NCBI GenBank assembly: GCA_024103195.1
Contig: JAGFIW010000140.1
Location: 1 to 35,681 of the forward strand
Source of the DNA: Saprospiraceae bacterium
GTDB taxonomy: Bacteria > Bacteroidota > Bacteroidia > Chitinophagales > Saprospiraceae
Length of the DNA: 35,681 nt
Direction of reading: 5' to 3'
Every line of letters begins with the position of its first letter. Positions within the stretch are counted from its first letter, which is position 1. The translations under genes were made by a program, and so were the position numbers. Below, piece by piece: positions 8,793 through 26,026 of this stretch. The notes below the pieces were generated by a model. The model was not told the DNA's origin, ran no database searches, and saw only the letters and a list, made by a program, of their open reading frames with translations.

Positions 8793-10961
8793 ATGAAAAA
8801 GCTTTTCCTCCTGATGGTAGCCCTTTGTACGGGTTATACCCTGATGGCCTATACGGTCACCGTTTTCGGCTATGTCAAGCGGCCGGATGCAACACCGGTC
8901 AAACAGCATCCCGTGCAGGTGAGCCTTGTGAAAGACAATGCCGTACTTCAATCCATGACGGCTCTTACTCAGGATAATGGCAAGTATATCGCTGTCTTTC
9001 AGGTAGATGACAACCTGACCGAATTGGTGGCCTACATTTCATTGAAAGATTGCCAGGACGAAACACTGGAAAAGGAGGTGTCCGTTTCGAAGCTGCATCC
9101 TGTGGCTGATGCCCACTTCACCTGGTGTGCCACTGCATGTGCTTTTGATGTGGTCATCGAACAAACACAAACCAACTCCGGTGAGGTCATACTCGTGGCG
9201 GTACCCCTGGGTGGCCTTCCGCCTTATCAGTTTCACTGGAGCAATGGTCAGACCGGACAGACCCTGCTCGCCCAGCCAGGCGATAAATATTGTGTCGTGG
9301 TGACTGACCAGGATGGTTGCCAGGGAGAATCATGTCTCACCCCGGGTGGACAAGAGGATTGCTTCGTGGAAATTGAAGCTCTACCCACCAATAATCCGGC
9401 CTCGGGTACCAAACTGATCGCCAAACCGAAAGGAGAGGGTCCGTTCACCTACTTGTGGAGCAACGGCTCACACGAACCATATATCTACGCCCTGCAAGCC
9501 GGGAAATATTGTGTGACCATTATGGACAACCTGGGCTGTCAGGCCACATCATGTATGGAGGTTGGTGCCAATGATCCATGTGCGGTGGAAATCCATGCCA
9601 CCCTGCTTTCCTCCGGGGCGCGCCAATTGGAAGCCCATGCCAAAGGAACCCCCCCGTTTGCATATCATTGGAGCAATGGCTCTGGTGACAAAACCATCAT
9701 CATCGAAAAGCCGGGCATCTATTGTGTGGAGGTCGTGGATGCCAATGGTTGTCAAGCCAAAGCCTGCTATGAATGGAAACAGGACGGAAAGGATTGTGCC
9801 GTAGAGATCAGCGTCGTTTATGACGGCAACAAAGCCAAGCTCATTGCCCATCCCAAAGGCAAGGCCCCTTATACCTTCCACTGGAGCAACGGCGCCAATG
9901 GCCCGTTCATTCACGTTGAAAAGCCGGGCGAGTATTGTGTCGTTATCGTGGACGCCAACGGATGTGAGGCCAAAGCCTGTGTCGTCGTTAAAGAACCGAA
10001 TACGAATGATTGCCAGGTACACATTCAGGTGGTCCCCACCCAGGACCCGGCAATATTCAAACTGATCGCCCAGCCGAAAGGACCTGGCCCGTTCCATTTC
10101 CTGTGGAACAATGGGGCGACCGTTCCGGTCATTTATGTCGAGAGCCCGGGCGAGTATTGCGTTATCGTCCAGAATGACCAGGGGTGTGAAGCCAAAGCGT
10201 GTATCAAGTTGCACAACGGTCCCCCAGCGCCATGTGCGGTGGAAATCGTCAAATCGCCTTCCAATTCGGGATTGTTGATCCTGAAAGCATTGGCCAACGG
10301 CAAAGCGCCCTTCTCCTACATGTGGAATACCGGCGAAACGACAGCGAGCATCGCGGTGGAAAAGCCGGGCGAATATTGTGTCAAGGTTACCGATGCGGAC
10401 GGATGTGTGGCGGAAGCCTGTATCCATGTTGGCGGAGGGTCTGATCCCAATGGACCGCCCTGCGCTGTGCATATCAAGGTGAAATACAAATCCAAAGAAG
10501 AGGCCCTGTATTTGTTCGCAGTTGGCAAAGGCAAGCCGCCGTTTGCTTATGCCTGGTCCAATGGCCACACGGGTCCAGACTTATTGGTCAAGGAACCGGG
10601 GGTCTATTGCGTGACCATAACGGATGCACAGGGGTGTCAGGCTACTGCTTGCATCGAAATCGAAAAGGATGAATTTACCGGGGGATCCGAAGAGGAAGGA
10701 GCCCTGGAAATTCGCCAAACCTATCCGGTGCCGGCCGGTGAGGAGGTATTTCTCCGGATCTTTAATCCCAGTGATGCCCGTATCACATTTCAGATATTCG
10801 ATCTGCACGGCATGGTCATCGATGCCCCTTTCCTGCAAAACCTGCCAGCAGGCGAACATCTCATCCATCTTCCGTTGAACGGGGTGGCTCCGGGGACCTA
10901 TTGGGTCAGGATTTCCTCGGACAAAGAGACGGTGACAACACCATTGATCAGGTCGCGCTGA
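8793..10961 (+). CDS. Secreted protein with seven SprB-like repeats and a T9SS C-terminal sorting domain
   Basis: Predicted cell-surface or secreted protein of 722 residues with no catalytic motif. The signal peptide is MKKLFLLMVALCTGYTLMA. Residues about 20-110 form a transthyretin/CNA-B-like beta domain (VFGYVKRPDATPVKQHPVQV). Seven tandem repeats of about 72 residues follow (residue 116 to about 626). Each has the SprB core PF-x-Y-x-WSNG, then PGEYCV, then D-x-x-GC-x-A-x-C, with four conserved Cys per unit. The last 85 residues (from LEIRQTYPVPAGEEV) are a type A T9SS C-terminal domain. Known family members act as surface filaments or adhesins in gliding species; a structural or adhesive role is inferred here. 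No gld or spr secretion genes are nearby. A -7-like TATCTTTA at 8759-8766 lies 26 bp before the start. Confidence 0.93.
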   Translation: MKKLFLLMVALCTGYTLMAYTVTVFGYVKRPDATPVKQHPVQVSLVKDNAVLQSMTALTQDNGKYIAVFQVDDNLTELVAYISLKDCQDETLEKEVSVSKLHPVADAHFTWCATACAFDVVIEQTQTNSGEVILVAVPLGGLPPYQFHWSNGQTGQTLLAQPGDKYCVVVTDQDGCQGESCLTPGGQEDCFVEIEALPTNNPASGTKLIAKPKGEGPFTYLWSNGSHEPYIYALQAGKYCVTIMDNLGCQATSCMEVGANDPCAVEIHATLLSSGARQLEAHAKGTPPFAYHWSNGSGDKTIIIEKPGIYCVEVVDANGCQAKACYEWKQDGKDCAVEISVVYDGNKAKLIAHPKGKAPYTFHWSNGANGPFIHVEKPGEYCVVIVDANGCEAKACVVVKEPNTNDCQVHIQVVPTQDPAIFKLIAQPKGPGPFHFLWNNGATVPVIYVESPGEYCVIVQNDQGCEAKACIKLHNGPPAPCAVEIVKSPSNSGLLILKALANGKAPFSYMWNTGETTASIAVEKPGEYCVKVTDADGCVAEACIHVGGGSDPNGPPCAVHIKVKYKSKEEALYLFAVGKGKPPFAYAWSNGHTGPDLLVKEPGVYCVTITDAQGCQATACIEIEKDEFTGGSEEEGALEIRQTYPVPAGEEVFLRIFNPSDARITFQIFDLHGMVIDAPFLQNLPAGEHLIHLPLNGVAPGTYWVRISSDKETVTTPLIRSR
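9138..10670 (+). repeat. Seven tandem ~72-codon four-cysteine SprB-like repeat units
   Basis: Internal coding repeats of the 8793-10961 gene. Units start at the codons for CAFDV, DCFVEI, PCAVEI, DCAVEI, DCQVHI, PCAVEI and PCAVHI. All seven share a WSNG/WNNG/WNTG tetrapeptide, the YCV segment and the GC-x-x-x-C ending. Units 3, 4 and 5 are closest to each other (DANGCQAKAC, DANGCEAKAC, DQGCEAKAC), which suggests recent duplication in the middle of the array. DNA-level identity is high only in short stretches, so the array as a whole is old. Confidence 0.9.
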
Positions 10962-14444: not shown

Positions 14445-16154
14445 TCAGGCTCTGGGCTTCCGGCCTCCGGAGGCCTTGCCGGGGACATAATCCCTCGTGT
14501 GGGTGTCCGGCTTTGACGGCTTTTTCGCCGGTTTGGTTTTGGCGGCCAGTTCCACGGCTTTGTAGGCATTCACGACACCTCCGCTGGCACAGAGGGAGGA
14601 GAATGGCACTTTCTCGTCTTTGGTGCCCGGCTTGATGACCTCGCGATCCACCTTGCTGACTGATTTGAGCAGGATCTCCCTGACCTGTGCAGCAGTCAGG
14701 TCCGGATAATAGGAACGGATCAGGGCAGCGACACCGGCTACCACAGGGGCGGCCATACTCGTACCTTGGGCATCGCCGTACCCGTTGTCGGGTGTCGTGC
14801 TGTAAATGGCCATGCCGGGAGCGAAGAGGTCAACATTCTTTTTGCCATAATTGGAAAAAGGGGCGGCCAGACGGTCACCGTCCTGCCAGTTGAGAGCGCC
14901 CACTTCGATCCAGTTGCGGGCAGCCTTGCGACCAAACAAACCGCGCTTTTCAAAGTATTTGTTGGGGAAGTTGTCACTGGTATCGTTGTTCTTTCCATCG
15001 TTGCCGGCGGCGTGGACCAACAGCACATCATGGGCCTCCGCATAACGAACGGCTTCGTCCACAATCTGCTTGTCCCAGGAATAGCTTTTGCCGAAACTCA
15101 TGTTGATGACTTTGGCTCCGTTGTCCACGGCATAGCGAATACCGTTGGCCACATCCTTGTCGCGCTCGTCTCCGTCGGGGACTACCCTGACACCCATGAT
15201 GATGACATTGTCTGCAACGCCTTTGATGCCCGTATCGTTGGACCGGTCGGCGGCGATGATGCCGGCAACATGGGTGCCGTGAAAGGCATCGGGTCCGGCT
15301 ATGTCCGCATTGCCGTACTGCCATTCGTTGGGGTCAGCGTAGTTGTCGCCAACCGTCGGGCGCGGGTCGAAGGTGGTGTCATAATAGATGGTCCGGCCCT
15401 TGAAGTACTCGATCGCTCCGTCAAAGTATGAGCCATCCAGGCCGTTGGTCAACAATTTGGACACCAGCTGGACATCATTCTGCAGGGTCTCATCTTCGGT
15501 GTTCAATTTTTCAAGGGCTTCCAGCGTCAGCTCTTCGGTTCCCAGGTGGGCCTTGAGACGCTTTTCCGCTTCCATGTAGTTGGTTTTGAGCGTCTCGTAA
15601 TAGCCAAGGGTGGACAAAGCCTTTTCACGCTCCTCTTGAACAGTCGTCTTCAATGCCTGGTATTTGGCATATTCCTTTTTGGCTTTGCCCTTGAGGCTCG
15701 CCGGATCTGCTGTCTTGTATTTTTTGTCGTAATGGACAAACAGCCGCGTCATCTCCAGGAGGTCGTGATGGACGTTCTCACCATTGGCATTCCCGATGAA
15801 ATTCCAGCCGTACATGTCATCCGCATAGCCATTCTTGTCGTCATCCTTGCTGTTGCCGGCTTTCTCACCGGGATTGCGCCACATGATACGGTTGAGGTCC
15901 TCATGCATAGGGTCCACACCGCCATCCAAAACGGCAACGACCACCGGAACACTTTTTTTGCCTTTCAGTAATTGTTGATAGGTCTTTTCGGTGCTGACAC
16001 CGGGTACCGCGTCTGCGGTCCAATCCAGGTTGAACCAGTTTTCCGGCGCCTTGGACTGGCCGGATTGGGCCAAAACGGAAATCGGCAGGACGAATCCCGC
16101 CAAAAGCGCCAACAGGGCAAATGAACGGTTGAAGGAAGCAACCAGAGAAGTCAT
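14445..16154 (-). CDS. Secreted subtilisin-family (S8) serine protease with a long insertion
   Basis: Exported protease of 569 residues. The signal peptide runs from MTSLVASFN to about SVLAQS (residues 1-31); the frame is open 74 codons further upstream, but the signal sequence fixes ATG 16154. The catalytic triad is Asp77 (AVLDGGVD), His292 (FHGTHVAG) and Ser466 (GTSMAAPVVAG), with oxyanion-type Asn385 in HAAGND. Asp and His are 215 residues apart, against about 32 in subtilisin. The insert contains an acidic DDDKNGYADD loop, likely calcium-binding, and a helical section (about 150-235) rich in Lys and Glu. It has no prodomain of usual size and no T9SS sorting domain; the C-terminus is a basic KP-rich tail. 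Secretion via Sec to the periplasm or beyond is inferred. Confidence 0.92.
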   Translation of the reverse strand: MTSLVASFNRSFALLALLAGFVLPISVLAQSGQSKAPENWFNLDWTADAVPGVSTEKTYQQLLKGKKSVPVVVAVLDGGVDPMHEDLNRIMWRNPGEKAGNSKDDDKNGYADDMYGWNFIGNANGENVHHDLLEMTRLFVHYDKKYKTADPASLKGKAKKEYAKYQALKTTVQEEREKALSTLGYYETLKTNYMEAEKRLKAHLGTEELTLEALEKLNTEDETLQNDVQLVSKLLTNGLDGSYFDGAIEYFKGRTIYYDTTFDPRPTVGDNYADPNEWQYGNADIAGPDAFHGTHVAGIIAADRSNDTGIKGVADNVIIMGVRVVPDGDERDKDVANGIRYAVDNGAKVINMSFGKSYSWDKQIVDEAVRYAEAHDVLLVHAAGNDGKNNDTSDNFPNKYFEKRGLFGRKAARNWIEVGALNWQDGDRLAAPFSNYGKKNVDLFAPGMAIYSTTPDNGYGDAQGTSMAAPVVAGVAALIRSYYPDLTAAQVREILLKSVSKVDREVIKPGTKDEKVPFSSLCASGGVVNAYKAVELAAKTKPAKKPSKPDTHTRDYVPGKASGGRKPRA

Positions 16155-16212
16155 AAAATTGGGTTTGATGGTTGGTAGGTGCAAAGTCGAAGAGGAGGAC
16201 CCGCCGGGGCCC

Positions 16213-16584
16213 TCAATAGTCATGGTCTGAAACGCCGTCGCCGTCATCCAGATTGTGCCGGTCTTCTTCACCAGGCTCATCGTAATCGTCCGATTCCTCC
16301 GTCCCGGCAAATTCTTCGGTATCGCCAAAATCTTCGCGGAGGTTGCCATCAGCATCGTAATCATCATCGTCGGCAATGATCTGACGGGCTTCCTGTACGG
16401 TCATTCGGACGAGATAATAGACATCTTCGGTCTCGAAAGGAAGCGCGGATACCTTCTTGCCTTCCTTGTTGACGTAGGAAATGAGATGCTGCGCAAATCC
16501 GTGCGGGTACTGGAGCTTGATCCGTGTGAGGATGTCATCCGGCAGATTTTCGTAATCCTTTACAATCCTTTTCTTAGGGTTCAT
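16213..16584 (-). CDS. Small acidic protein of a Bacteroidota-conserved unknown family
   Basis: Protein of 123 residues from ATG 16584. An upstream in-frame Met gives an unlikely 46-residue extension. The first half is a compact region (MNPKKRIVKDYENLPDDIL, then IKLQYPHGFAQHLI and VSALPFETEDVYYLVRMT). The second half, from about residue 77, is extremely Asp/Glu-rich and ends in DHDY. Similar short proteins beginning PKKRIVxDYxNL are familiar to me from Bacteroidota, but I know no function. The tail recalls RNA-polymerase delta-type or histone-chaperone-type acidic tails only in composition. It is 58 bp upstream of the S8 protease gene on the same strand. Confidence 0.75.
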   Translation of the reverse strand: MNPKKRIVKDYENLPDDILTRIKLQYPHGFAQHLISYVNKEGKKVSALPFETEDVYYLVRMTVQEARQIIADDDDYDADGNLREDFGDTEEFAGTEESDDYDEPGEEDRHNLDDGDGVSDHDY

Positions 16585-16811: not shown

Positions 16812-19448
16812 ATGGATATACAATCCACCATACCGGACACTTCAGGAGGTAGCGAACGCTACAAATTCCTGGCCATCCGCACCTATGCCGACACGGAATG
16901 GCTGGCCGACAACCGCAAGCGGTACCGGCAAGTCTATGACCAGTATGAACTCACCTACATCTATGTCGAGCTGAGTTTCATCAACAAAGCTTTCGATCGG
17001 GAAGACTGGTCGGCCAAAGTGGAATTGAAATGCTTCAAAGCCCACCAGAAAAACCGCCCCGTTTGTCATCTGACCCTCGAACGAGACATCCCCAAGACGG
17101 AATCCACCGTTTATCTGCGGGAGGGATGGGGCAACAAAAAGGAAGGCGCTTTCTGGAAACCGGGGACCTACTTCTGGGAAGCCTGGATCGATGGACACAA
17201 GGCCGGCACCCGCTATTTCTATGTCCAGACCACGGGCCAGAAATCGCCCGCCATCCCCGACGACTACATCCAGTTGGCGGGTGTCCGCATGTATGAGGGG
17301 CCCATGGACGACGTTCCCGAACACGAAAGACAATATCTGGAGGAATTCGATAGCAGGGACTCCCGGTTTGTTTACCTCGAGCTGCAACTGGAAAATCAAC
17401 TGCCCGGCACCAATTGGTTTCTCGAGTTGACGGTAAAGTTTTTCAATGAGGGCCGCGAATTGAAGGGAAGAGTGGTCAAGTTTGTCTCTGTGCGGGAAGA
17501 AGACCAATGGCTGACCCTCAGCGTAGGGTGGGGTAGTGACACCCGGGGCACCTGGCGGGAAGGGACCTATACCGCCGAGATCGTCTTTCTCGATCGACTG
17601 ATGGCTACCGTTTATCTGAGATTTGGGCAAGAGTATCTGCCCGGAGCTCCCATGGTACTCTTGCCGGGTCAGGACAGGGCATTCCCCCTCCTGGAGAACA
17701 AGCCCGACACCCGGTCGCTCCAGGAGGTGCTCGATGAGTTGGACCGCATGATTGGTCTGACCTCCGTCAAAAAACAGGTGCGCGATCGAACCGCTTATAT
17801 GGAGTTCCTTCGTCTGCGGCAGCGCCGCGGATTCCTGGAAGATGGTCAAATGCAACTCCATGCCGTCTTCAAAGGCAATCCCGGCACCGGAAAAACAACC
17901 GTTGCCCAGATGATGGGCGCCATCTATTTTCAGCTCGGTCTGTTGTCCAAAGGCCATGTCCATTCCGTGGACCGGGCTGACCTGGTCGGCGAATACATCG
18001 GACAGACAGCGCCCAAGGTGAAGGAGGCGTTGGACAAGGCCCGGGGGGGAGTTCTCTTTATTGATGAAGCTTATGCCCTGGCCCGTGCCAATGACGACAT
18101 CAAGGATTTTGGCAAGGAAGTCCTCGAAATCCTGGTCAAAGAGATGTCCGATGGTCCCGGAGATATTGCCATCATTGCGGCCGGCTACCCCGCTGAAATG
18201 AATCACTTCATCAAGAGCAATCCCGGCTTGAAATCCCGGTTCAAGATGGAAATCATGTTTCCGGATTACACGCCGTCCGAGTTGTCTGCCATCGCTGATG
18301 TGGTATCGGAAAAGCTGGAAATTCGCCTCGATCCCGAAGCCAAAAAGCTGCTTGACCAGATCATCCTGCGTGAATATCGCGACCGCGACCGGACTTTTGG
18401 TAATGCCCGCTTTGTGCACGATCTGGTCGAGCAGGCCAAAGTCCAACTGGGTCTTCGCACCATGCAGACGGAAAATCCGGAATCCCTTTCACCAGAAGAG
18501 ATATCCCTGGTTCGCGTGACGGACATCATCCATTCCGCAGAAAGCGAAGCAGAGATACTGGCCCATTTGCCAGTCGATGAAGAGCTGCTGGCAGAAGCCT
18601 TGCGTGAGCTGGATGCCCTCAACGGCTTGGCCGCCATCAAGGCTGAGATCAGGGAAACCGTATTGCTGGTCCGGTATTATCTCGCCTGTGGCGACCGGCA
18701 ATTGAGGTCCTTCTCCATGCATACGCTGTTTGTGGGCAATCCCGGAACGGGCAAAACCACCGTCGCCCGCATCCTCGCCCGGATATACAAGGCCCTTGGC
18801 CTTCTGGAACGGGGTCATGTCGTGGAAACGGACCGCCAGGGACTGGTAGCTGGGTATGTCGGCCAGACAGCCATAAAAACTGCCGAACGCGTCCAGGAAG
18901 CCATGGGGGGTGTCCTCTTTATTGATGAAGCCTATTCCCTTTCTCAATCGGGCGCCGGAAGCGCCGGGGATTTTGGCGACGAGGCCATCCAGACTTTGCT
19001 CAAACGTATGGAGGACCACAGAGGAAAATTCTTCGTGTTTGCGGCCGGATATCCCGATAACATGGAGAAGTTCCTCAAAGCCAACCCCGGTCTTCGTTCC
19101 CGGTTTGACAAGACCCTGGTGTTTGATGACTACCCACCGGAACAACTCACCGAGATCCTGCTGCAACAGATTCAGGCCGCAGGTATGGATCTGTCGGCCG
19201 ACGCCGCCAGCGAAGCAGCCGACTGGGTCCGGGAACTGCACCAGCAACGCGACCGTTACTTCGGGAACGCCAGGGTCATCCGCCAAATCGGAGAAGCCAT
19301 TCTCCATCATCATCGCACCTTGTTGGCGCGCCGTCATGCCGAAGGCCAAACAACACCGGTAGCTATGATTGAAAAGGATACGATCGCTGCCGTTCGTCAT
19401 GGCTTCCGGTCTGGCGAATGGGTACGTAAGGGAATTGGATTCCGCTAA
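16812..19448 (+). CDS. Tandem CbxX/CfqX-type AAA+ ATPase with duplicated beta-rich N-terminal domain
   Basis: Protein of 878 residues with no signal peptide. Two related beta-rich domains come first (about 15-140 and 155-285). Each has an aromatic-rich centre and ends in a W-x(2)-GTY motif followed by a strand (FWKPGTYFWEAWIDG; TWREGTYTAEIVFLD). Two AAA+ modules of the CbxX/SpoVK/EccA type follow. AAA1 has Walker A GNPGTGKTT at residue 355, GVLFIDEAYAL and NPGLKSRF; AAA2 has Walker A at 642, GVLFIDEAYSL and NPGLRSRF. Both keep the Walker lysine, the DE pair and the arginine finger, so both look active. The family remodels protein complexes, but there are no Rubisco or ESX genes here. The substrate is unknown; the N-terminal pair probably recognises it. 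Confidence 0.92.
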   Translation: MDIQSTIPDTSGGSERYKFLAIRTYADTEWLADNRKRYRQVYDQYELTYIYVELSFINKAFDREDWSAKVELKCFKAHQKNRPVCHLTLERDIPKTESTVYLREGWGNKKEGAFWKPGTYFWEAWIDGHKAGTRYFYVQTTGQKSPAIPDDYIQLAGVRMYEGPMDDVPEHERQYLEEFDSRDSRFVYLELQLENQLPGTNWFLELTVKFFNEGRELKGRVVKFVSVREEDQWLTLSVGWGSDTRGTWREGTYTAEIVFLDRLMATVYLRFGQEYLPGAPMVLLPGQDRAFPLLENKPDTRSLQEVLDELDRMIGLTSVKKQVRDRTAYMEFLRLRQRRGFLEDGQMQLHAVFKGNPGTGKTTVAQMMGAIYFQLGLLSKGHVHSVDRADLVGEYIGQTAPKVKEALDKARGGVLFIDEAYALARANDDIKDFGKEVLEILVKEMSDGPGDIAIIAAGYPAEMNHFIKSNPGLKSRFKMEIMFPDYTPSELSAIADVVSEKLEIRLDPEAKKLLDQIILREYRDRDRTFGNARFVHDLVEQAKVQLGLRTMQTENPESLSPEEISLVRVTDIIHSAESEAEILAHLPVDEELLAEALRELDALNGLAAIKAEIRETVLLVRYYLACGDRQLRSFSMHTLFVGNPGTGKTTVARILARIYKALGLLERGHVVETDRQGLVAGYVGQTAIKTAERVQEAMGGVLFIDEAYSLSQSGAGSAGDFGDEAIQTLLKRMEDHRGKFFVFAAGYPDNMEKFLKANPGLRSRFDKTLVFDDYPPEQLTEILLQQIQAAGMDLSADAASEAADWVRELHQQRDRYFGNARVIRQIGEAILHHHRTLLARRHAEGQTTPVAMIEKDTIAAVRHGFRSGEWVRKGIGFR

Positions 19449-21697: not shown

Positions 21698-22117
21698 TCA
21701 CAGGTTTCGCAGGCTGTTCCGGTCGCGAAGTATTTCCTTGAGTTCCCGGATAAAGCCATCCGCATCGGGGGAAAGTTTCCGGAGCGTCTCACTCAGATCA
21801 AAGAACGAACCGTTCTCCATGCCCGGAGCCAGTCGCTGGATCTGGTCCTTGAGTTGATGGACGTCTTCTTTCAGCATTTTCTTCAGGGAAGGGATATCAT
21901 GCCAGTCTCCTTCAATGGCGAGGGCTTTTTGACGGGTACCCTCGGCAGGGTCTTCGAGCGGGTCCAATTCAATGATCCCCCGGTCCTTGTCCTCCGAAAA
22001 CGGTCCGGATTGCATTTCAGGCAATTGCCATTGGTCTCCGGCATTGACCAGAAAGATCTCCAACCCCTTCTCCTTCATCCTGTAAATGATGAGGCGAATG
22101 TGTTCCAGCATACTCAT
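21698..22117 (-). CDS. Unknown protein with Nudix-like N-terminal strand pattern
   Basis: Protein of 139 residues, not recognised with confidence. The first 35 residues (IRLIIYRMKEKGLEIFLVN, then GDQWQLPE) look like the opening beta-strands of a Nudix hydrolase. The Nudix box (G-x5-E-x7-REUxEE) is absent, so it is not a normal Nudix enzyme. The middle is acidic (EDKDRGIIELDPLEDPAEG) and the C-terminal half is predicted helical (IPSLKKMLKEDVHQLKDQIQ), possibly a coiled coil. A start at 22111 (MLEH) is equally plausible. It lies 12 bp upstream of purC and 67 bp downstream of the membrane protein gene at 22185-22868, so the three are probably co-transcribed. Confidence 0.75.
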   Translation of the reverse strand: MSMLEHIRLIIYRMKEKGLEIFLVNAGDQWQLPEMQSGPFSEDKDRGIIELDPLEDPAEGTRQKALAIEGDWHDIPSLKKMLKEDVHQLKDQIQRLAPGMENGSFFDLSETLRKLSPDADGFIRELKEILRDRNSLRNL

Positions 22118-22184: not shown

Positions 22185-22868
22185 TCATTTTGTAGGACGG
22201 GGCACAGGAAGGTTTTCCTTTAGGGCTATTGTCCAGAAAACACCCAGGCATCGCATCCAAAAACCGTCTTCAGGACCGGATTCTTCCAACCACAAAAAGG
22301 CTTTGGGTTTGAGTCGGCCACTGGCCTCAGGACCGGCCAGCAAGGCCATTCGTCGGGAACCATGCACCAATTCGGCACTACCGTCCTCCAGGAGAATGTA
22401 TGACCAGGTGCCGCTGCCTGCCGGGACCAGGGTCCAGGTCCCTGTTTCGTCGAGGGAGGCAATGTGCCGCTCATCTCCGAACAGATGGATACCTGATTCC
22501 CGGATATGGAAGGTCAAAAGCACGGGGATTCCGGAGATCCTGACGACAAGCAGGTACTGAGGAACCTGTGATTTGTAGTGATAACTGGCCCATGCGACCA
22601 CCGGCTCCTCATATATGGTAAAGAGTGTGCCCATCTTGCGGTCTTTCCATCCCCGGTACTTCTTTGTCCCTAGGGCCAGTTGGCAGAGCAGACCCGATTC
22701 ATCAGAAGCCCATGGCTGGAGGGGGCGGGCATCCACCATCACCTGCAAGGCTCTCCGGTCCGTTTCGATCTGGTTTTTCGATGGATGGCTGTACCTGAAA
22801 TAGAAATGGGTGAAAAGGAAGGCTGATCCCGCCAGGGATGCCATCATGATCATACTGAAAAAAATCAT
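22185..22868 (-). CDS. Unknown membrane-anchored protein
   Basis: Protein of 227 residues, not recognised. One N-terminal membrane helix (about 2-24, MIFFSMIMMASLAGSAFLFTHFY, quoted here only by its ends MIFF and THFY) is followed by a soluble domain with many beta-strand-like segments (QYLLVVRISGIPVLLTFHI; TWSYILLEDGSAELV). There is no Cys at a lipobox position. It is the first gene of the minus-strand group leading to purC. A -7 box (TAACTTTG) lies 69 bp upstream, consistent with it starting a transcript. Coding potential is supported by length and by the amino-acid composition of the frame. Confidence 0.72.
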   Translation of the reverse strand: MIFFSMIMMASLAGSAFLFTHFYFRYSHPSKNQIETDRRALQVMVDARPLQPWASDESGLLCQLALGTKKYRGWKDRKMGTLFTIYEEPVVAWASYHYKSQVPQYLLVVRISGIPVLLTFHIRESGIHLFGDERHIASLDETGTWTLVPAGSGTWSYILLEDGSAELVHGSRRMALLAGPEASGRLKPKAFLWLEESGPEDGFWMRCLGVFWTIALKENLPVPRPTK

Positions 22869-25045: not shown

Positions 25046-25066
25046 ACATCAAAATTACGCATACAC

Positions 25067-25390
25067 ATGGCAGACAGCGCAAAACCGCAAGGTCAACAAT
25101 TGAATATCGAGCTGCCGGAAGAGGTGGCAGAGGGGATTTATTCCAATCTGGCCATCATCTCGCATTCTCATTCGGAGTTTGTCCTCGATTACATCCGCAT
25201 GATGCCCAATCTGCCCAAGGCAAAGGTCAAGGCACGCATCATTCTTACCCCCCAACATGCCAAACGGCTTTTGCGCGCCCTGGCGGACAACGTCAAGAAA
25301 TTTGAAGCACAGTTCGGAAAGATTGAAGACGTCGCTGAACCGGGTGGGTTTCCCCCCATGAATTTCAACACCCCTACTGCTCAGGCCTGA
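25067..25390 (+). CDS. DUF3467 domain protein
   Basis: Small soluble protein of 107 residues that is nearly all DUF3467: LNIELPEEVAEGIYSNLAII, HSHSEFVLDYIRMMPNLPKAKVKARI, then TPQHAKRLLRALADNVKKFE. The family is widespread in bacteria and has no established function. The start is ATG 25067. A TTG at 25043 in the same frame lies within the -7 box and is rejected. The next gene, for a barrel protein, starts 12 bp after the stop, so the two are probably co-transcribed. Confidence 0.9.
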   Translation: MADSAKPQGQQLNIELPEEVAEGIYSNLAIISHSHSEFVLDYIRMMPNLPKAKVKARIILTPQHAKRLLRALADNVKKFEAQFGKIEDVAEPGGFPPMNFNTPTAQA

Positions 25391-25402
25391 TCCATCCGCC
25401 CC

Positions 25403-26026
25403 ATGAAAACATCTACCCTTGCTCCCCTGGTGAGGTACACCCTTCTGGGCCTCTTGCTGTGGATGTCCACCTGTGCGCAGGTGGCTGCCCAGCAACGCGA
25501 ACGTCCCACGCCCAAGCGCTTTAGCGACCAAATATGGTATGGGGGCAGTTTCGGCCTTGGATTCGTAGGGGGAAACCAATTTTCCCAATTCAACTTCGGG
25601 ATATTTCCCATGGCAGGTTACAAACTGACGCCGTGGTTTTCGGTCGGACCCCGGCTCGGCGTGGATTACAACTATTACAAGGCCCCGAGTGCTTCCAGTC
25701 TTAAACTGAGAGCCGTCAATGTATTCGGATATTATGCCGGCTTGTTTGCGCGAGCCCGTATTTACCGGTCCTTTTTTGCACAAACCGAATACGGTGTCGA
25801 TATGGGGTCTTTCCCGCGCTTTACCTATTCCGGCCTGATGGAAGTGGATGACAATGACCGACCGGTCAAACATCAAGTCACCCAGGAACATGGTTTTATC
25901 GGCCTTGGATACAATTCGGGAGGCACATTTGCCTCGGAAATCCTCGTTCTCTATGATCTTCTGGTGGCCGAGAATTCACCGCTTAGCCCCTGGAATTACC
26001 GTATCGGTTTTACCTACCGATTCTGA
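25403..26026 (+). CDS. Predicted outer-membrane beta-barrel protein
   Basis: Exported protein of 207 residues. The signal peptide covers about residues 1-30 (MKTSTLAPL to AQVAAQ). The mature part has repeated amphipathic strands ending in aromatic residues (WYGGSFGLGFVGG; FNFGIFPMAGYKLTPWFSVG; HGFIGLGYNSGG) and terminates in Phe (IGFTYRF), the usual outer-membrane assembly signal. The size suits an 8-stranded barrel. No specific family was recognised. It is coupled to the DUF3467 gene upstream and converges with a TPR gene 7 bp downstream. Confidence 0.82.
   Translation: MKTSTLAPLVRYTLLGLLLWMSTCAQVAAQQRERPTPKRFSDQIWYGGSFGLGFVGGNQFSQFNFGIFPMAGYKLTPWFSVGPRLGVDYNYYKAPSASSLKLRAVNVFGYYAGLFARARIYRSFFAQTEYGVDMGSFPRFTYSGLMEVDDNDRPVKHQVTQEHGFIGLGYNSGGTFASEILVLYDLLVAENSPLSPWNYRIGFTYRF

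Follow-up and report, generated by a model that had tools for sequence, protein, structure and literature searches.

The window analysed here, a stretch of 35,681 nucleotides from a member of the Saprospiraceae, contains a gene for an 878-residue protein that joins two AAA+ modules of the SpoVK/CbbX/EccA clade to an N-terminal pair of predicted Ig-like domains and a docking-like C-terminal tail, an arrangement for which we found no earlier description. The gene is a core gene of the Saprospiraceae and a common gene of the Bacteroidia, and it stands alone, as a single gene outside any cluster. We propose, with moderate confidence, that the protein is a threading remodeller which binds its substrate through the Ig pair and docks a partner, here left unspecified, through its tail. 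Considerably more tentative is the narrower reading that this Bacteroidia clade protein is an unrecognised partner of ClpP, an Ig-guided two-ring unfoldase that docks through a C-terminal [ILVM]-G-F tail.

Table 1. Features of the gene and its product; positions are those of the window, residue numbers those of the protein.
Feature	Position	Strand	Basis
Whole gene, 878-residue beta-beta-CbxX-CbxX protein	16812..19448	+	ORF and translation; full-length orthologs
Beta domain 1 (residues about 16-143), predicted Ig/FnIII-like sandwich, W115-x2-GTY	16857..17240	+	AF2 model, VIA-align
Beta domain 2 (residues about 150-281), second copy, W248-x2-GTY	17259..17654	+	Profile-profile comparison; fold comparison
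CbxX-type AAA+ module 1 with AAA_lid_6 (residues about 303-582)	17718..18557	+	Pfam; best matches CbbX 3zuh/3syk, E 2e-57
Module 1 Walker A GNPGTGKTT (355-363)	17874..17900	+	Invariant, 23 orthologs
Module 1 aromatic-hydrophobic pore loop Y-I-G (395-397)	17994..18002	+	Alignment with the YIG loop of CbbX
Module 1 Walker B VLFIDE (414-419)	18051..18068	+	D418, E419 invariant
Module 1 arginine finger R476	18237..18239	+	Invariant; aligned to the NPGFRSR arginine of CbbX
CbxX-type AAA+ module 2 (residues about 590-866)	18579..19409	+	Pfam; best match EccA1 9lur, E 1.8e-50
Module 2 Walker A GNPGTGKTT (642-650)	18735..18761	+	Invariant, 23 orthologs
Module 2 pore loop Y-V-G (682-684)	18855..18863	+	Alignments with orthologs and EccA1
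Module 2 Walker B (701-706)	18912..18929	+	D705, E706 invariant
Module 2 arginine finger R764	19101..19103	+	Invariant
C-terminal tail (867-878), predicted disordered, flanks poorly conserved	19410..19445	+	pLDDT under 50; column conservation
Tail tripeptide I-G-F (875-877), candidate docking motif	19434..19442	+	Conserved in orthologs

The reading frame opens with an ATG, a start with which the N termini of the orthologs agree, and no signal peptide is evident in the 878-residue product. Two copies of the beta domain (residues 1-285) are followed by two complete CbxX-type AAA+ modules; Pfam AAA matches two stretches of the protein (E 1.5e-35), together with AAA_lid_6. The initial annotation had described a tandem CbxX-type ATPase with a beta-rich N-terminal pair, and the reading frame, the Pfam matches and both copies of the W-x2-GTY motif bear out this description. 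Its view that both modules are catalytically complete also stands, as the Walker A motif, the Walker B Asp-Glu pair, the arginine finger and the sensor-2 arginine (R533 in module 1, R821 in module 2) are invariant in 23 orthologs. Across the same orthologs I396 and G397 of the first pore loop do not vary and residue 395 is always aromatic, while in the second module variation begins at position 651, directly after Walker A.

Several features place the modules in the SpoVK/CbbX/EccA clade. The GY signature of the sensor-1 region is present twice (G458-Y459 and G746-Y747), as is the clade asparagine upstream of the arginine finger (N470 before R476, N758 before R764), and all of these residues are invariant in the 23 orthologs, although the asparagine lies six positions from the arginine here as against the four residues counted in the published analysis of the clade (PMC10659427). 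Both modules retain the sensor-2 arginine of the clade, and the helices predicted before Walker A (303-312 and 317-338 in module 1, 590-602 and 607-626 in module 2) correspond to its helical hairpin. SpoVK is the top-scoring NCBIfam model for both modules, which nevertheless score far below its cut-off (TIGR02881, 272.1 and 234.2 bits against 422.95); the whole protein exceeds that value (498.6 bits) because the scores of the two modules add up. The models of CbbX (TIGR02880, 246.5 and 182.6 bits per module and 421.3 summed, against 459.25) and EccA (TIGR03922, 210.3 and 205.1 bits, 406.3 summed, against 466.65) are not satisfied even by the sums. As the signatures of the clade are present while each module falls short of every named family, the protein, judged by its sequence, belongs to the SpoVK/CbbX/EccA clade and, on the tests run, to none of its three named families.

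CbbX, the red-type RuBisCO activase (PDB 3zuh, 3syk), is the nearest solved structure to module 1, with which its Walker motifs, arginine finger, sensor-2 residue and YIG pore loop all align; it is, however, a single module without beta domains. EccA, of type VII secretion (EccA1, PDB 9lur), is the nearest solved structure to module 2 and carries TPR repeats in front, as do remote relatives of the window protein, which itself has two modules and an Ig pair where EccA has TPR. SpoVK, a chaperone of MurG in sporulation (PMC10659427), differs in its short unique N-terminal domain and has been reported in sporulating Firmicutes only. RuBisCO_large was not found in the window's genome and occurs in two of 60 relatives, and WXG100 scored above its cut-off in none of 60 genomes, that of the window being among those without it. 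Thus, although the affinity of module 1 to the CbbX structures could suggest a CbbX-type activase of RuBisCO, this reading, with both modules well below the CbbX cut-off and the enzyme missing from nearly all carriers of the gene, is almost certainly wrong. A role in type VII secretion was rejected on the WXG100 result.

The two halves of the N-terminal region each contain the W-x2-GTY motif (W115-K-P-G-T-Y120 and W248-R-E-G-T-Y253), and a profile-profile comparison of one half with the other gave a probability of 99.2% and a score of 110, against scores of 9-19 and probabilities under 2.5% in 20 column-shuffled controls; the halves are thus two copies of one domain. The initial annotation could not assign the pair to a known family, and the curated collections agree with this: residues 1-285 had no curated Pfam match in the window protein and 23 homologs and no NCBIfam match above cut-off in the window protein. 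A search of the pair profile against PDB sequences returned chance matches only (best E 0.43). Structure prediction and a fold search, which the initial annotation had advised for this region, gave it a fold, an ordinary one, without bringing it into a curated family. The AF2 model of the pair (mean pLDDT 78, from a six-sequence alignment) comprises two sandwiches of seven main strands each, and the beta domains are accordingly predicted to be seven-strand Ig/FnIII-like sandwiches. With VIA-align the first domain reached Z 10.8, with 101 residues superposed at an rmsd of 2.6 A, the Ig domains found in GH2 enzymes matched with Z of about 10 across about 100 residues, and the second domain (150-275) matched the Wzt chain 8dne_C with Z 9.8; the top Foldseek match was RbmA, a tandem FnIII protein (PDB 4kkp, E 3.6e-7). 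It should be emphasized that RbmA and the GH2 Ig domains resemble the pair in fold only, at a sequence identity of about 10%, and that shared function is not implied. Indeed the Ig/FnIII-like fold is so common and generic that neither ligand nor function can be read from it. The suggestion that the pair recognises a substrate is nonetheless reasonable, and agrees with the published analysis, which reads the variable N termini of the clade, a group of dedicated chaperones, as substrate recruiters (PMC10659427). We found nothing in support of the accompanying idea that the substrate is a surface or secreted protein, and, as noted, no signal peptide is evident in the ATPase.

The beta domain also occurs in other settings. 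It is present in a single-module beta2-AAA protein (L108), and in ORFs of 1281-1360 residues, where a single copy is placed between N-terminal TPR repeats and three CbxX modules (L112, L114-L116, L118-L125). The hosts of the latter are distant Bacteroidota whose gene content suggests Ignavibacteria; their coupling of TPR to CbxX recalls EccA, and in L116 the P-loops of modules 2 and 3 are degenerate. At least two copies of the domain, without an AAA module and with a likely signal peptide as judged by eye, are found in three further ORFs (L110:9525-10361, L113:8612-10546 and L126:1845-4148), and one secreted relative gave weak, below-cut-off matches to DUF3859 and DUF6941. The beta domain is thus apparently a portable interaction module used on both sides of the membrane, common to cytosolic machines and secreted proteins and yet part of no curated family.

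Orthologs of the whole protein were found in most of 60 relatives searched. The N-terminal domain pair occurs in 186 of 198 Saprospiraceae genomes and in 97 of 100 genera, nearly always in ORFs of about 870-920 codons; two genera represented by three genomes each, g57 and g206, lack it. Searching the class with the SpoVK profile recovered the full architecture in many other families of Bacteroidia. Most genomes hold one free-standing copy. Many SpoVK-type modules were seen in one genome (G684:C2 and G684:C6), in ORFs of 1,120-1,150 residues that are apparently arrays of at least three modules.

The surroundings of the gene are not conserved. Neither in the loci of 40 relatives nor in 40 loci from other Bacteroidia families was any neighbour kept beyond the genus or a few genomes, and the attempt to derive a function from neighbours was abandoned on these grounds. 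The gene had been called an orphan, linked neither to RuBisCO nor to type VII secretion, and this label is apt given its unconserved neighbours and the absence of RuBisCO and WXG100 from the genome; the profile search and the neighbour survey likewise showed a widespread domain and no CbbX or ESX linkage in relatives. The proposal that it represents an undescribed system, by contrast, does not hold, as what was found is one core gene without conserved partners, inside a described AAA+ clade.

Two candidate partners were considered and set aside. A protein of 1,100 residues whose Clp-type AAA modules are flanked by unassigned regions (L048:5811-9113) is encoded in 13 of 36 Saprospiraceae relatives. 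Its gene adjoins the CbxX gene, in divergent orientation, in six or seven of these 13 genomes; the window's genome lacks it, however, and it is thus not an obligate partner. Further relatives, of about 1,060-1,107 and about 760 residues, were observed in the genomes that carry the 1,100-residue gene. The second candidate, the S8 protease beside the gene in the window, lies near it in five loci only, mostly within the genus. This protease (14445-16376, minus strand) is mycosin-like, with 149 bits where the cut-off is 278.75; its listed TTG start is probably too early, a likely signal peptide beginning at an internal Met (MTSLVASFNRSF...). Elsewhere the window encodes a large protein that has SprB repeats and a sorting domain for type IX secretion (8793-10961, plus strand), and three minus-strand ORFs of 139, 227 and 278 residues (21698-22117, 22185-22868 and 25055-25891) have no Pfam match.

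It could be argued that the ATPase and the S8 protease together form an anti-phage pair resembling IetA and IetS, to which they show weak matches (62 bits for the ATPase to IetA, 37 bits for its neighbour to IetS). Set against the cut-offs, however, the scores are what any AAA+ or subtilase relative would give (53 bits against 510 for IetA, 36 against 900 for IetS), and the protease stays close to the gene in no more than a few genomes, most of them from the genus. Moreover, a near-universal core distribution is unlike that of a defence gene. We regard the pairing as highly improbable, and a defence role was rejected on the scores, the rarity of the pairing and the presence of the gene in 186 of 198 genomes.

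The remaining conserved element lies at the C terminus. The tail tripeptide I875-G876-F877, which is absent from the initial annotation, has a counterpart of the form [ILVM]-G-[FY], no more than about 20 residues from the C terminus, in 119 of 120 orthologs (80/81 plus 39/39), the remaining one having ISY. Among unrelated ORFs, 47 of 422 have such a tripeptide in their last 25 residues. Because the orthologs share descent, the counts cannot be treated as independent trials, yet the tripeptide clearly stands out from its flanks. All 39 of the further Saprospiraceae tails drawn after the motif had been noticed in the first set were positive. In other Bacteroidia families [ILVM]-G-F was present in 39 of 39 tails, with different flanks around a constant tripeptide. 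The motif is absent from six CbxX proteins without a beta domain and from twelve of the TPR-beta-AAAx3 relatives. Between 0 and 15 residues follow it across the orthologs, indicating that a free carboxylate is not needed. The tail is predicted to be disordered; the full-length model is weak (pLDDT 63, six-sequence alignment).

Clp ATPases dock ClpP through flexible loops that carry the tripeptide (L/I/V)-G-(F/L) (PMC8745299, PMC9035409), a pattern matched by I875-G-F on its predicted flexible tail past the last helix of module 2. In the same genomes the loops of ClpX read IGY, IGF, VGY, VGF or LGF and those of ClpC VGF, while the tripeptide was not found at the corresponding place in ClpB. Since the tripeptide is that of the Clp ATPases themselves, and the tail motif does not depend on a free carboxylate, ClpP is the best single candidate for a partner, and we give it the largest share of any one partner, although docking of the tail to ClpP is a possibility that we place below an even chance. 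On this reading the protein would be an additional ClpP unfoldase, its tripeptide inserted into the hydrophobic pockets of ClpP and its captured proteins degraded, a role that we put forward tentatively. The YIG and YVG pore loops, one in each module, are consistent with such a role and recall the aromatic pore loops of ClpX and ClpC, and ClpP was present in all 10 genomes tested; the ClpP of the window's genome is encoded at G000:C196:1711-2235. ClpX and ClpC, however, belong to another AAA+ clade and bear their tripeptide on an internal loop, in contrast to the C-terminal tail described here. A linear IGF peptide by itself has very little activity on ClpP (PMC8745299), and the tripeptide is thus not sufficient evidence for docking. 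Association with peptidases was not found in the SpoVK/CbbX/EccA clade (PMC10659427), a literature search for docking of ClpP through a C-terminal tail returned none, and the gene lies apart from clpP and clpX. Furthermore, no covariation was seen within genomes between the tail and the ClpX loop (34 of 40 loops recovered): the third position of the ClpX tripeptide is Tyr in 23 of the 34 genomes, that of the tail almost always Phe.

A self-latch, or a partner other than ClpP, would be the alternative for the tail. In particular, the protein may be a dedicated chaperone or activase of one cytosolic enzyme, like CbbX or SpoVK, whose tail holds on to the ring it belongs to, or to an adjacent subunit, and which works without a protease. 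This possibility, which we too place below an even chance, accords with the narrowness of the characterised members of the clade, each of which serves one target (PMC10659427, PMC5437159), and with the single free-standing copy in most genomes. A latch is less easily reconciled with a tail predicted to be disordered, not packed, and with flanks that vary among families around a constant tripeptide.

The model that we prefer, a threading remodeller that binds its substrate through the Ig pair and docks through the tail, leaves the identity of the partner aside. The protein would be a cytosolic, ATP-driven threading machine of classical AAA+ type from the SpoVK/CbbX/EccA branch, with its subunits probably assembled into a stacked two-ring hexamer. 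The Ig pair would recruit a specific protein, as has been argued for the variable N termini of the clade (PMC10659427), and the pore loops would pull a segment of this target through the channel, by analogy with CbbX, which threads by means of its pore-loop tyrosine (PMC5437159). Beyond the final helix of module 2, the tail may then dock the partner below.

Functions are established for few members of the SpoVK/CbbX/EccA clade, and each of these acts on a narrow target. As the two-module protein belongs to the core gene set of an entire bacterial family, it probably does something basic. The published analysis found no evidence of protease feeding by the clade, a function that the conserved tail now makes testable through ClpP binding. 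Should the protein indeed be a partner of ClpP, it would provide the first protease link for the SpoVK/CbbX/EccA clade.
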